A DNA stretch of 64,000 nucleotides, from the NCBI RefSeq assembly GCF_003254505.1, contig NZ_QFYP01000001.1, positions 3,270,001 to 3,334,000 of the forward strand, read 5' to 3'. Shown piece by piece: positions 23,627 to 28,715 of this stretch. Position numbers and translations under genes: made by a program. Positions within the stretch are counted from its first letter, which is position 1, and every line of letters starts with the position of its first letter. The DNA comes from Phenylobacterium hankyongense. Lineage in GTDB: Bacteria; Pseudomonadota; Alphaproteobacteria; Caulobacterales; Caulobacteraceae. Under the pieces are notes generated by a model. It did no database searches. It was not told where the DNA came from and was given only the letters and a program-made list of their open reading frames with translations.

Positions 23627-23716
23627 GGACGGGTGGCCGAGTGGTTTAAGGCAGCGGTCTTGAAAACCGCCGTGGGTGAAAGCCCACCGTGGGTTCGAAT
23701 CCCACCCCGTCCGCCA
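23627..23716 (+). tRNA. tRNA-Ser (anticodon UGA)
   Basis: A 90-nt cloverleaf with CCA encoded. The acceptor arm GGACGGG pairs with CCCGTCC, followed by discriminator G and CCA. The D-loop contains GTGGTTTAAGGC. The anticodon stem GCGGT/ACCGC encloses loop CTTGAAA, giving anticodon TGA. A long variable arm (GTGGG-TGAAAG-CCCAC) marks it as class II serine tRNA. The T-loop is GGTTCGAATC. It borders the accessory stretch to the right, and tRNA-Ser genes are frequent integration targets. Confidence 0.97.
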
Positions 23717-23921
23717 ATCTCGCCCCGTTTTTAAGGGCCTGCGTAGCGCCTCTGATAGGGTCGCCCAGCGGATCGCCGGGCCAGCTTCACAGGCCGGGCG
23801 CAAACCGTCGTTACCGAAGCTTTGCGGATGTTTCACCGCCTTGTCGCACATTTCAGCGACCCTGGCCGCAACAGGGGGCGCCGCGGCCAATCACGCGCGG
23901 GCGCGCGGGGCGGCGAAGATC

Positions 23922-24446
23922 TTGCGTTATGGTATCGTGCGGGACGGCGACGGACTGCCTCCCGCGACTTTGCAACGACTGGGTTTGGAGCGGGCGGCGT
24001 GCGACCTCATCGTCGAGGAAGGGCGCGTTACCGAGCAACGGCGCCTGGACCGGCTGCTGCTGCGCCTGCGGAGCGGCGACGAGGTCCTGGTCTACAGCCT
24101 GGCGGCGATTCAGCGCCCGGCGGGCGAGGTCGCCCAGCTGCTCCGGCATCTGATCCGCACCGGCGTGATCTTTCGGCTCGCAGACGAGAACGAGAGGTTC
24201 GTGCCGATCGCCAAGACCAAGGCGGCGCGTCGGATCGTCGAGCTGCTGGCCGCGCATGAGGATCATCGCCGCGGGCGGCCCAACGCGCAGTGCGTGCGCG
24301 GCGGTAGCCGCAACCCGCTGTCCCGATTCCAGATCGACTATGCCCGCAAGCTGCACAAGCAGGGGGCTCCGCTTCGGACCATCGGCCTGATCTTCCAGCT
24401 TCCCCCGGATGAGATCTGGGAGCTGATCAGCGAGCCTCGGGCTTAG
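23922..24446 (+). CDS. Serine-resolvase-fold protein lacking catalytic residues, with C-terminal HTH
   Basis: 174 residues from TTG 23922. The first ~110 follow the resolvase N-terminal domain: RYGIVRDGDG at the position of GYARVSTxxQ, RLDRLLLRLRSGDEVLVYSL matching LDxLLxxLRPGDxLVV, then GVIFRLADEN. The catalytic Ser (aligned to Arg) and the first active-site Arg (aligned to Ile) are lost. The DRLGR motif reads AAIQR, so one of its two arginines remains. The C-terminus (QIDYARKLHKQGAPLRTIGL) is a helix-turn-helix. It may be a DNA-binding remnant or a domesticated regulator. The start is uncertain: the frame is open back into the tRNA, and TTG 23841 is an alternative. Neighbours are tRNA-Ser and a receptor pseudogene. 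Confidence 0.65.
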   Translation: MRYGIVRDGDGLPPATLQRLGLERAACDLIVEEGRVTEQRRLDRLLLRLRSGDEVLVYSLAAIQRPAGEVAQLLRHLIRTGVIFRLADENERFVPIAKTKAARRIVELLAAHEDHRRGRPNAQCVRGGSRNPLSRFQIDYARKLHKQGAPLRTIGLIFQLPPDEIWELISEPRA

Positions 24447-24563: not shown

Positions 24564-25040
24564 TCAGAAGTTCACCGACGCTTCCACGCCGAAGGTGCGC
24601 GGCGCGTTGAAGTTGCCGTAGTCGCCAAGCGTCGAGCGGTTGGCCGGATGCGGCGGTAGACGTACTGCTCGTCGAGCAGGTTGCGCGACCAGAGCGAGAG
24701 GGTCAGCTTCGAGCCGTCGCCGCGGACGTCGATGTCGGCAAGCGAAAGGCGGCCGTTCTGCCCTGGACCTGCACGAGCGGCGGCAGCGGGCGGACGGTCC
24801 CGGCCGGAAGCGTGCCCGTGGCCGGCCCGATGGGCATGTTCAACGGGTTGTAGTTCAGCAGCTGGCTGTAGAACGGCGTGCTGGCGTCGCGGCCCACGTC
24901 ATAGGAGTAGTCGGCCGTGAAGTTGTCGGTCGGCTTCCAGCGCGCGCTGAAGCGCAGGCGCTGACGATCGAAGTAGTTCCAGCCGGTGCTGCCCGGCAGC
25001 GGGTCCTTCGTGGTGGCGTCCTGGTGCTGGGCCACTACCG
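24564..25040 (-). pseudogene. C-terminal remnant of a TonB-dependent receptor
   Basis: Leftward fragments of an outer-membrane receptor barrel, split by at least one frameshift. One frame reads GWNYFDRQRLRFSARWKPTD and DYSYDVGRDASTPFYSQLLN. A second frame, nearer the 3' end, reads LTLSLWSRNLLDEQYVYR. The end, in a further frame, resembles the terminal beta-strand (EASVNF then stop at 24564-24566). These are typical of the last ~200 residues of TonB-dependent receptors. Plug, signal peptide and most of the barrel are missing, so the gene is dead. It does not obviously match the intact receptor at 28857-31697. Confidence 0.7.
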
Positions 25041-25305: not shown

Positions 25306-26805
25306 ATGAATACCGTTCCTGTCCAGGTCGCCGATCAGGCATTGACCGGCGTGCCTGGTCTTGACGACATCCTTGCGGGCGGGCTCGCCAAGGACCGGCT
25401 CTATCTGTTCGAAGGCAGCCCCGGCACCGGCAAGACCACGGCCGCCCTGAGCTTCCTGCGCGCCGGCGCCGAGATCGGCGAGCGGGTGCTCTACATCTCG
25501 CTCGCCGAGACCGAGGAGGAGCTGCGCGAGAGCGCCCTGTCACACGGCTGGATGCTGGAAGGGGTGGAGATCTTCGAGCTGATCCCGCCCGAGAGCCTGC
25601 TGGACGACCGGCAGCAGCAGAGCCTGCTCTACTCGTCCGACCTCGAGTTGGGCGAAACGACCCGGATGATCTTCGAGGCCGTCGAGCGGGTGCAGCCGTC
25701 GCGGGTGGTGATCGACAGCCTGTCGGAGATCCGGCTGCTGGCGCAGAGTTCGCTGCGCTACCGCCGCCAGGTGCTGGCCTTGAAGCACTATTTCGCCAAG
25801 CACCGGGCCACCGTCCTGCTGCTGGACGACCTGACGACCGACACCCTCGACAAGACCGTCCACAGCGTCGCCCATGGCGTGGTCCGCCTGGAGGAGCTGG
25901 CCCCGGAGTATGGCGCCGAGCGGCGGCGCATCCGGGTGGTGAAATACCGCGGACGCAAGTTCCGCGGCGGCTATCACGACTTCACCATCAAGACCGGCGG
26001 ACTGGAGGTCTATCCCCGCCTGGTCTCGGCCGAGCACAAGACGGCGTTCGAGCGGGCCCCGCTGCCTAGCGGCATCACCGGCCTCGACTCCCTGCTGGGC
26101 GGCGGCGTCGAGCGCGGCTCGAGCTGCCTGATCCTGGGCCCGGCCGGCACCGGCAAGTCGCTGATGAGCGTCTATTTCGCGATCACCGCCATCGCCCGCG
26201 GCGATCGCGCCGCGCTGTTCATCTTCGACGAGGAACTGGGCTTGCTGTTCGATCGCACCCGCGCCCTGGGAATCGACCTGGAGGGTCTGCGGGACCGCGG
26301 CGACCTCCTGATCCACCAGGTCGACGCCGCCGAGCTGTCACCCGGCGAGTTCACCGCCCGCGTCCGCGAGTGCGTCGACAAGGCCGATATCAGGGTCGTG
26401 GTGGTCGACAGCCTCAACGGCTACCAGGCGGCGATGCCCGAGGAGAAATTCCTGCTGCTGCACATCCACGAGCTGCTCCAGTACCTCAACCGCCAGGGGG
26501 CGACGACATTCCTGACCGTGGCCCAGCACGGGCTGGTCGGCGACATGAAGGCGCCGGTGGATGTCACCTACCTGGCGGACACCGTGCTGCTGCTGCGCTA
26601 TTTCGAGGCGATCGGTGAAGTCCGCAGGGCCGTCTCAGTGATCAAGAAGCGCGCGGGCCGCCACGAAAAGACCATCCGCGAATATGAAATCACCGATACT
26701 GGGCTCAGCGTCGGGCCACCCCTGGTCAACTTCCAGGGCGTATTGCGCGGCGTGCCGAATTTCGTGGGGCCAGGGGCCGGTCTGATGGGCGAGCGCACCG
26801 CATGA
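25306..26805 (+). CDS. KaiC-like circadian-clock-family ATPase with two RecA-type domains
   Basis: 499 residues with tandem KaiC domains. Domain 1 opens ALTGVPGLDDILAGGLAKDR, with Walker A GSPGTGKTT (37-45). Domain 2 opens GITGLDSLLGGGVERG, with Walker A GPAGTGKS. The segment matching the end of KaiC CII is VTYLADTVLLLRYFEAIGEV, then SVIKKRAGRHEKTIREYEIT. Residues aligned to KaiC Ser431/Thr432 are Thr421-Tyr422. The second domain has FDEE near the position of the catalytic carboxylate pair; the first has AET. KaiC oscillates as a hexameric autokinase/ATPase in cyanobacteria; outside them it works in stress or time-keeping signalling. It overlaps the downstream kinase by 4 nt, with no kaiB nearby. 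Confidence 0.88.
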   Translation: MNTVPVQVADQALTGVPGLDDILAGGLAKDRLYLFEGSPGTGKTTAALSFLRAGAEIGERVLYISLAETEEELRESALSHGWMLEGVEIFELIPPESLLDDRQQQSLLYSSDLELGETTRMIFEAVERVQPSRVVIDSLSEIRLLAQSSLRYRRQVLALKHYFAKHRATVLLLDDLTTDTLDKTVHSVAHGVVRLEELAPEYGAERRRIRVVKYRGRKFRGGYHDFTIKTGGLEVYPRLVSAEHKTAFERAPLPSGITGLDSLLGGGVERGSSCLILGPAGTGKSLMSVYFAITAIARGDRAALFIFDEELGLLFDRTRALGIDLEGLRDRGDLLIHQVDAAELSPGEFTARVRECVDKADIRVVVVDSLNGYQAAMPEEKFLLLHIHELLQYLNRQGATTFLTVAQHGLVGDMKAPVDVTYLADTVLLLRYFEAIGEVRRAVSVIKKRAGRHEKTIREYEITDTGLSVGPPLVNFQGVLRGVPNFVGPGAGLMGERTA

Positions 26806-28715
26806 CCACGCCTGCGGCGTCACGGTCCGAACGGGTCCTGATCCTGGCGCCGCTGGGCCGCGACTCGCAGATCGCGGCCGCTATCCTGCATGAGGCGGGC
26901 CTGTCGGTCAGCGTCTGCCGCGACCTCGCCGAGCTTCGCACCGAACTCGACGGCGAGGCCGGCGCGGCCCTGATCGTCGAGGAGGCGCTGCAGGGGCCTC
27001 ACTACACGGACCTGGTCGGGTGGATCGACACGCAGCCGGCCTGGTCGGATTTCCCGATCGTCATCCTGGCCGGCCGTGGCGGCGGCCTGGAGCGCAATCC
27101 GGAGGTCCGGCGCTTCAGCGAAGCGTTGGGCAACGTCAGCTTCCTGGAGCGGCCGTTCCACCCGACGACCCTGGTCAGCATCATGCGCACCGCCCTGCGG
27201 GGGCGGCGGCGGCAATACGAGGCCCGCGCGCGGATCGAGGCCATCCGGGCGGCCGACGAACGCCTCAGGCTCAGCGAGGCCTCCCTGCGCCTCGCCACCG
27301 AGGCGGCCGAGGTCGGGACGTGGGACCTCGACCTGCAGACCAACGCCCTCACCTGGTCGGACCGGACCAAGGCGATGTTCGGCATCTCGCCGGACCGGCA
27401 CTGCAGCATGGATGACTTTTACGCCGGCCTGCACCCCGAGGACGCGGCGGCGACCAGCGTGGCGTTCGCCTCGGCGCTCGATCCCGAACTCCGCGCCAGC
27501 TACGACGTGGAGTACCGGACCATCGGCCGGGAGGATGGGGTCGTCCGCTGGGTGGCCGCCAAGGGCAAGGGCCTGTTCGACGACCTGGGCCGTTGCGTCC
27601 GCGCCATCGGCACCGCCCTCGACGTCACCCAGCGCAAGGCGATCGAGGAGCGCCTGCGCAACAGCGAGGCCAGCTTGCGGCTGGCGCTGGACGCCGGCCG
27701 GCTCGGGGCGTGGGAGCTGGATCTGCCCGACCAGATCCTGCGCGCTTCGCTCACCTGCAAGGCCAACTTCGGCCGCGAGCCCGACGAGCGGTTCACCTAC
27801 GAGGATCTGCTGGCGAGCGTTCATCCGGAGGACCGGTCGCAGATGCTCGGCCAGCTGCGCCAAGCCGTCGAGAGCGGCCGGGACTACGACCTCGAGCATC
27901 GCGTGCTGCGTCCCGACGGCCGTATCGCCTGGGTGCTGGTGCGGGCGCAGACGACCTATGCGCCCGACGGCTCGCCGGTGCGGATGACCGGCGTCTCCCT
28001 CGACATCACCGAGCGCAAATATGCCGAAGAGCACCTGCGGTTGATGGTCAACGAACTCAATCACCGGGTGAAGAACTCGCTCGCCACGGTCCAGGCGATC
28101 GCGGCCCAGACTCTGCGGCGCGAGGAGATTCCTGCGCACATCCGCGAGTCGCTGACCTCGCGGCTCCTGGCCCTGGCCCGCGCCCACGACGTGCTCACCG
28201 ACGAGAAGTGGTCGGGCGCCAGCCTGCGCGAGATCGCCCATCAGACCGCGGCGCCCTACGAGCATGCGGAAAACGACCGCTTCTCGATCAGCGGACCGCC
28301 GCAGACGCTGCCGCCAAAGACGGCGATCGCCGTCGCCCTGGCCTTCCACGAGCTGGCCACCAACGCGGCGAAGTACGGCGCGCTCTCGGTTCCCGACGGC
28401 CGCGTGTCGATCGAATGGAGCGTCGCGCCGCATCCTACCGACGTGGCGCTGCGCCTGGTCTGGCGCGAGACCGGCGGCCCGCCGGTTTCTCCGCCCGAGC
28501 GCACGGGCTTCGGCACCCGGCTGATCGAGCGGGGGCTTTCCGCCGACCTGGGCGGCGCCGTGAAGGTGAGCTACCCCGCCACCGGCGTCGTCTGCACCAT
28601 CGAGGCCGTCCTGCCCGCCAGCCTCACGGAAGACGAGCCCGCGCGCATTTCGGAGCGCCCCGACGCACGGCGCTGGCAGGTCCGCGCCGGAGACGCCAGC
28701 AGTAGCGTCAACTGA
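26802..28715 (+). CDS. HWE-family PAS histidine kinase coupled to KaiC-like protein
   Basis: 637 residues, soluble. Residues ~8-140 look like a receiver (VLILAPLGRDSQIAAAIL, FPIVILAG), but the phosphoacceptor region reads LIVEEAL, so the Asp is missing. Two PAS/PAC domains follow (~165-285 and ~295-410; each ends with a DVTQRKAIEE- or DITERKYAEE-type linker). The HWE dimerisation/phosphotransfer segment is NELNHRVKNSLATVQAIAAQ with His421. The ATPase domain shows LAFHELATNAAKYGAL, the Trp-Glu of LVWRETGGPP and GTRLIERGL. HWE kinases are common in alphaproteobacteria and often feed general-stress or light signalling. Coupled translation with the KaiC-like gene (ATGA) suggests a shared pathway. 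No partner response regulator is adjacent. Confidence 0.9.
   Translation: MTTPAASRSERVLILAPLGRDSQIAAAILHEAGLSVSVCRDLAELRTELDGEAGAALIVEEALQGPHYTDLVGWIDTQPAWSDFPIVILAGRGGGLERNPEVRRFSEALGNVSFLERPFHPTTLVSIMRTALRGRRRQYEARARIEAIRAADERLRLSEASLRLATEAAEVGTWDLDLQTNALTWSDRTKAMFGISPDRHCSMDDFYAGLHPEDAAATSVAFASALDPELRASYDVEYRTIGREDGVVRWVAAKGKGLFDDLGRCVRAIGTALDVTQRKAIEERLRNSEASLRLALDAGRLGAWELDLPDQILRASLTCKANFGREPDERFTYEDLLASVHPEDRSQMLGQLRQAVESGRDYDLEHRVLRPDGRIAWVLVRAQTTYAPDGSPVRMTGVSLDITERKYAEEHLRLMVNELNHRVKNSLATVQAIAAQTLRREEIPAHIRESLTSRLLALARAHDVLTDEKWSGASLREIAHQTAAPYEHAENDRFSISGPPQTLPPKTAIAVALAFHELATNAAKYGALSVPDGRVSIEWSVAPHPTDVALRLVWRETGGPPVSPPERTGFGTRLIERGLSADLGGAVKVSYPATGVVCTIEAVLPASLTEDEPARISERPDARRWQVRAGDASSSVN

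Follow-up and report, generated by a model that had tools for sequence, protein, structure and literature searches.

A small serine recombinase encoded in a 64,000-nucleotide stretch of the Phenylobacterium hankyongense genome (hereafter the window) has very likely lost the ability to cut DNA, and we propose, with a probability of roughly 0.55, that it belongs to a catalytically dead family whose members were recruited as DNA-binding regulators within the Pho regulon. We favour this reading because the cutting site is lost, the gene is intact in relatives, and in most of them it comes with a phosphate-starvation-type switch and with phosphate or secretion genes as neighbours. Its interpretation as a pseudogene, an att-site factor or an active recombinase is disfavoured, and the copy in the window appears to be a somewhat eroded instance of the family, with a weaker promoter box, no evident -10 element and a broken receptor neighbour.

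Table 1. Features of the window, and neighbour classes of the 32 family loci (the window and L041-L071), classed by eye
Feature	Position or loci	Strand	Basis or remark
tRNA-Ser(TGA)	23627-23716
Candidate PhoB-type box GTTTCAC-CGCC-TTGTCGC	23830..23847	+	74 bases ahead of start codon
Dead serine-recombinase-like gene	23922..24446	+	174 codons, TTG start, TAG stop; open frame, PF00239, relatives
Recombinase-fold domain, residues 1-118	23922..24275	+	Alignment to Gin and gamma-delta resolvase, residue census, model
HTH-like three-helix C-terminal domain, residues 135-170	24324..24431	+	Model, invariant residues, dN/dS; DNA binding predicted
TonB-dependent receptor remnant, C-terminal end	24564..24650	-	Reads ...GDYGNFNAPRTFGVEASVNF-stop, resembles end of L041 receptor
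TonB-dependent receptor remnant, middle part	24703..25035	-	47% identity to L041 receptor in alignment; no Pfam match alone
T2SS cluster, GspO side	L042-L046, L049, L055, L065		8/32 loci
ElpS-like lipoprotein and TonB receptor	L050-L054, L056-L062, L066, L067		14/32 loci
T4SS genes or contig edge, without ElpS-like/TonB pair in the stretch	L047, L063, L064		3 loci
pst-adjacent	L068-L070		3/32 loci
Kinase and LysR neighbours shared, nothing else	L071
TonB receptor of 800-806 aa, or remnant	window, L041, L048		3 loci

Gene, start codon and predicted fold

An earlier note, made from the letters of the window, had described an intact frame of 174 codons with a resolvase domain, ending in a helix-turn-helix (HTH), and each of these features was recovered. 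With regard to the start, ATG, GTG or TTG stands at the residue of the window TTG in all 29 aligned rows (in L007, the GTG sits just ahead of the first codon of the row), which makes TTG 23922 a credible start codon; from there, the frame is open to the TAG ending at 24446. The Pfam Resolvase model PF00239 matches residues 18-113 of the window protein with 30.9 bits (cut-off 23.3), and its PHROGs match is DNA invertase-like (E 6.9e-8). A PDB profile search with the window protein and 28 relatives retrieved Gin invertase (E 5.8e-16), together with gamma-delta and Tn3 resolvases.

Structure prediction, a check that the note had proposed, agrees with this assignment. The AlphaFold2 model, built from the window protein and 28 relatives, has a mean pLDDT of 89.4 and displays a recombinase-like core up to residue 117, a segment of low confidence (123-128) and three C-terminal helices (135-170) that correspond to the HTH of the note. 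Tn3 and gamma-delta resolvase-DNA complexes are its top Foldseek matches (E 1e-7); the full-length TM score reaches only about 0.5 because the placement of the domains differs from that in the complexes. Pfam HTH models gave no match to the window protein, and six residues of the HTH-like domain (G148, R152, I154, G155, F158 and P162) are invariant in the 29 aligned rows. By homology, as judged from the similarity of fold and domains, the protein is a small serine recombinase; it resembles Gin invertase and the gamma-delta/Tn3 resolvases in fold, domain order, catalytic domain and three-helix C-terminal domain.

Loss of the active site

Residues were numbered through a profile alignment to Gin invertase and gamma-delta resolvase, which is free of gaps at the N-terminus. 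The window protein keeps Arg8 (R7) and Arg71 (R65), and has lost Ser10 (G9), Asp67 (A61) and Arg68 (A62). The earlier note had read the catalytic Ser as Arg; since the N-terminal alignment has no gap, that register is two residues out, the Arg in question being R7, i.e., the retained Arg8. The Ile reported in place of a paired Arg falls in a column that is not catalytic. As for DRLGR, given by the note as AAIQR, the change is correct for Asp67 and Arg68, both Ala, and mistaken for the last Arg, which is the retained Arg71. Despite the register error, the note's broader finding of damage to the nucleophile and to the DRLGR motif holds.

Structures show contacts of Arg8 and of Arg68 with the scissile phosphate, and a similar contact has been proposed for Arg71 (excerpts of PMC4499144). 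Compared with the set that marks an active enzyme, namely Ser10 with Arg8, Arg68 and Arg71, the window protein has Arg8 and Arg71, with Gly and Ala at the two other positions. Since Ser10 and Arg68 are missing, it is very likely, from its sequence, that the protein is unable to cut DNA, as the note had concluded.

In a census of 32 family rows, Arg68 is lost in all of them, and the other residues are retained to varying extents (Arg8 in 23, Ser10 and Asp67 in 15 each, Arg71 in 10); Ser10, Arg8 and Arg71 differ freely among close relatives. The census includes L003, L033 and L034, which stand outside alignment A1 and the promoter counts (in L003, whose frame is shifted, the Arg8 and Ser10 positions are blank), and leaves out the ordinary resolvases L009, L029, L031 and L038, the fragments L010 and L030, and L039. 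Ordinary resolvases of the same bacterial family, the Caulobacteraceae, retain Arg8, Ser10, Arg68 and Arg71 in 24 of 24 cases (4 + 20, the residues of the 20 controls being counted by eye), and the sole exception at Asp67 among the 24 is a Ser in L160. The absence of Arg68 from all its members, and of Ser10 from about half of them, also distinguishes the family from Gin and the gamma-delta/Tn3 resolvases.

A still active recombinase, whose unusual active site would make do with R7, R65 and another nucleophile, could draw on the partial retention of Arg8, Ser10 and Arg71 across the census and on L002 and L012, where few of the listed catalytic residues are missing. We regard it as highly improbable, given that Arg68 is gone from every row, that the three other residues vary between close relatives, and that the plasmid and phage records searched (see below) yielded no match.

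Distribution and ancestry

Matches to the single window protein at E <= 0.001 were found in 30 of 101 genomes of the genus; 26 of these carry a near-full-length family gene, G099 carries a fragment, and G018, G072 and G089 contain ordinary resolvases only. One of the 26 genes, in G011, is shifted in frame at its start: the N-terminus of this copy (L003, LRYGIVRE..., near 4702770 of contig C1) was found in another frame, and the copy is therefore frame-shifted or mis-sequenced. Of 298 Caulobacteraceae genomes, 27 have a profile match at E <= 1e-30, six of these lying outside the genus, and the next-best score below the family (88.3 bits, G089) belongs to an ordinary resolvase. In a class-wide search of 385 genomes at E <= 1e-22, the window's own genome was the sole match among a limited number of candidates scored per genome. 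No match was obtained in 72,556 plasmid records queried with the relative L019, or in 50,697 phage records queried with the window protein, and plasmid or phage cargo was rejected on these grounds.

The family forms one split, with support of 100/98, in a tree with only four ordinary resolvases. When L039 and 24 ordinary resolvases were included, the family came out on one branch in 28% of bootstrap trees, L033 and L039 being long branches, so that a single origin is only a possibility in this larger tree. L039 (G141:C36:17545-17973, locus L073) is a more distant relative from another genus, in which DVFGR replaces DRLGR and Arg68 is consequently absent; it lies between two PstS-cluster genes, and may represent a lineage that split off early in the same proposed recruitment.

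The tRNA-Ser neighbour

The earlier note had placed the gene beside tRNA-Ser and had suggested a directionality factor as a possible role. The adjacency is real, the gene beginning 205 bases 3' of the tRNA, and would suit a directionality factor or the relic of an element integrated at this site. However, the 25-base 3' end of the tRNA occurs once in the 64-kb window, with no repeat, a tRNA of any kind is present in 5 of the 31 relatives' stretches scanned, the nearest about 2.9 kb off the family gene, and neither phage nor plasmid relatives were found in the records searched. With regard to the tRNA itself, tRNA-Ser(TGA) was detected in 19 of 28 scanned stretches around the rlpA loci of relatives, and 29 rlpA loci, covering up to 1.5 kb per side, contain no family gene, receptor or KaiC gene. 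Because tRNA-Ser accompanies rlpA and the family genes of relatives occur without it, the neighbour is, on this comparison of loci, incidental. The association with a tRNA or att site was accordingly rejected, and a directionality factor or integration relic is scarcely credible. The note had named orthologues that keep their catalytic residues next to att sites as evidence against its own reading; none was found among the relatives.

Neighbouring genes in relatives

Gene calling around the family relied on a home-made script based on codon usage, which missed the family gene itself in L055, L062, L063, L064 and L066. Family models confirm PstS, PstC and PstB in L055, PstS in L069, PhnC in L045 and a PhnD-like protein in L049, as well as the prepilin peptidase in L045, GspL in L055, and T2SSG, VirB4, SLT and TonB receptors among the neighbours; the remaining neighbour names reflect cluster membership only. 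The ElpS-like and porin-like proteins gave no firm match to family models. The label 'ElpS-like' denotes position, a lipoprotein-like start and published gene order, sequence comparison with ElpS being no part of it; in Caulobacter, this order is cc0170-cc0171-gsp (excerpts of PMC2996285).

The ElpS-like gene is present in 50 of the 101 genomes of the genus, and its distribution follows that of the family gene: it occurs in 23 of 26 genomes that have the latter versus 27 of 75 that do not (Fisher p 2.9e-6, uncorrected for relatedness). In three genomes (G000, G098 and G017), the family gene occurs without the ElpS-like gene, and the same three have the other TonB receptor as its neighbour. T2SSG was found in 20 of the 101 genomes and is absent from the window genome, and the T2SS was therefore rejected as an obligate partner.

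A PhoB-type box in most promoters of the family

The PhoB consensus is CTGTCAY-N4-CTGTCAY. Upstream alignments of the family genes revealed a conserved 7-4-7 repeat, and a direct repeat is the form given for the PhoB binding box in excerpts of PMC10294691. At least 11 of the 14 consensus positions are matched in 20 of 29 family promoters, versus 83 of 584 other genes of the same loci; p-values for such comparisons are too small, because the promoters share descent. One PstS type, searched for across the genus, turned up in no more than 4 of 101 genomes, and for this reason the scoring matrix, seeded with the Pho consensus, was trained on a mixture of 24 non-family promoters (ElpS-like, PstS, porin-like and PhnD-like). 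With this matrix, 28 family promoters reach a median of 15.4 bits, versus 2.7 for 536 other genes, and 18 of them exceed 14.6 bits, the 95th percentile of the background. In a shuffle test, 26 of the 28 outscored 95 or more of 100 shuffled versions; the two others, L028 (2.7 bits) and L014 (7.9 bits), did not. L006, which has a very short upstream stretch, is among the 29 promoters counted by consensus and outside the 28 scored by matrix and shuffling. Scored separately, L039 has 14.5 bits, L033 6.5, L034 12.0, L003 22.2 and L030 16.3. Ordinary resolvases have a median of 3.9 bits, with 0 of 24 above 14.6 and a maximum of 13.3 (L158); one of these controls, L151, has an upstream stretch of 26 bases only. 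Both this box and the phosphate and secretion genes that the family adjoins set it apart from Gin and the gamma-delta/Tn3 resolvases.

By eye, a -10-like hexamer follows the box by some ten bases in about 13 of 18 printed promoters, and none is evident after the box in the window and L011. In 12 of 28 promoters, the highest-scoring box is on the strand that points away from the family gene; where this gene is divergent from a small protein (C3) or a kinase (C33), the box may therefore serve either of the two genes. In most of these gene clusters, the remaining members (GspO, C1 receptor) lack a PhoB-type box of their own.

The candidate box of the window matches the consensus at 10 of 14 positions and scores 12.6 bits, which is the 94th percentile of background genes and lies below the 14.6 line. 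One of 100 shuffles scored as high, 6 of 536 genes equalled it at the same offset and strand, and a single further site in the 64-kb window reaches 12.5 bits. Its position matches that of the boxes of relatives and is the same in L011, and the window genome encodes a PhoB scoring above the curated cut-off.

Two further observations concern the genes next to the family. Nine of the 14 loci with an ElpS-like lipoprotein and a TonB receptor also carry VirB-type T4SS genes adjoining this pair (L050-L052, L054, L056, L057, L059, L060 and L062), and two (L066, L067) carry T2SS genes. The divergent stretch between the lipoprotein gene and the SLT (virB1-like) gene scores high when searched for this box (median of 16.2 bits for C4), which suggests that the T4SS of these loci may be phosphate-controlled, the C4 box being possibly the lipoprotein's own training site. 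C3 is a cluster of small, secreted-looking proteins of about 90-110 aa with no Pfam match, often divergent from the family gene (L042-L047, L049-L051, L055, L057 and L061; e.g., L049:8636-8938), and 6 of its 12 promoters exceed 14.6 bits for the box.

Surroundings of the window gene and selection

The receptor remnant of the window lies downstream of the family gene and is convergent with it, as is the full-length receptor gene in L041; the receptor gene is intact in L041 and L048. The genus-wide search of 101 genomes found neither an ElpS-like gene nor T2SSG in the window genome. At 25306-28715, a KaiC-type ATPase gene is directly followed by a PAS/HWE histidine kinase gene.

The earlier note had ascribed the intact frame to selection and had named dN/dS as a check. 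Nei-Gojobori values range from 0.17 to 0.50 over 36 family pairs, which is not near 1, although they are approximate because dS exceeds 1 in many pairs. For the window and L011, the nearest pair, dN/dS is 0.33; taken separately, the catalytic part gives 0.39 and the HTH gives 0.16. These ratios support retention of the gene by purifying selection, acting most strongly on the HTH, and a pseudogene was rejected in view of the open frame and the nearest-pair value.

The window gene could still be an orphan in early decay within a family that functions elsewhere. Such a history would account for its weak box without an evident -10 element, for the receptor gene in pieces, for a genome without an ElpS-like gene or T2SSG, and for a tRNA neighbour that relatives do not share. 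Yet the frame is intact, the dN/dS with L011 is low, above all in the HTH, and the branch of the window (0.18) is no longer than that of its sister (0.37). Furthermore, the ElpS-less genomes G000, G098 and G017 have their receptor neighbour in common. On balance, we consider early decay improbable.

Possible function and significance

The suggestion of the earlier note that the protein is kept as a DNA-binding regulator fits its retention, the PhoB-type box and the phosphate-gene neighbours, with the regulation itself being predicted from sequence. Phosphate starvation would activate PhoB, which would turn on transcription of the family gene in most species. The resulting protein would probably dimerise through the resolvase fold, bind DNA with its HTH without cutting it, and tune its neighbours, namely, the TonB receptor and ElpS-like lipoprotein, the T2SS or T4SS cluster, and the pst/phn transporters. 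We advance more tentatively, as a possibility short of even odds, a wider claim that the whole lineage consists of PhoB-switched transcription factors coordinating phosphate scavenging with T2SS/T4SS, in which the recombinase fold would serve for dimerising or sensing and the HTH for operator binding.

A retained DNA-binding or structural protein that exerts no control on transcription, for example, a dead dimer bridging DNA or hampering an active resolvase and co-expressed with the Pho regulon, seems unlikely. The resolvase fold and HTH are both preserved, synaptic complexes can still form with NM S10A, a Tn3 resolvase variant without catalytic activity (excerpts of PMC4499144), and no operator was found for the protein, all of which would agree with such a role; however, the family is tightly linked to particular phosphate and secretion loci, and not to resolvase genes.

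The closest known setting for the recruited regulator that we favour is the Pho regulon of Caulobacter, which comprises pstSCAB, the T2SS, several TonB receptors and ElpS (excerpts of PMC11208175 and PMC2996285). The kinds of neighbours and the promoter box of the relatives resemble this regulon, whereas phosphate control of the family gene is deduced from its promoter. The words resolvase and recombinase are absent from the main text of PMC11208175, PMC2996285 and PMC5590869 (Brevundimonas). No paper treating a catalytically dead resolvase as part of the Pho regulon was recognised, by title or start of abstract, among the matches listed in a literature search, a weak result, the subscription literature being under-covered. 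The retention of an element-type DNA enzyme for a host function recalls Hin and other recombinases recruited by hosts from mobile elements; the serine-recombinase examples given in excerpts of PMC8987985 act by DNA inversion, whereas the chemistry appears lost here.

If the proposal is correct, the family would clearly exemplify the retention of small serine recombinases after the loss of their chemistry, in which the promoter indicates a defined signal, phosphate, and the neighbours constitute a testable set of targets. The annotation 'resolvase' would mask such a regulator, and the finding would suggest an unrecognised second-tier regulator near the Pho-linked secretion genes of the Caulobacteraceae.
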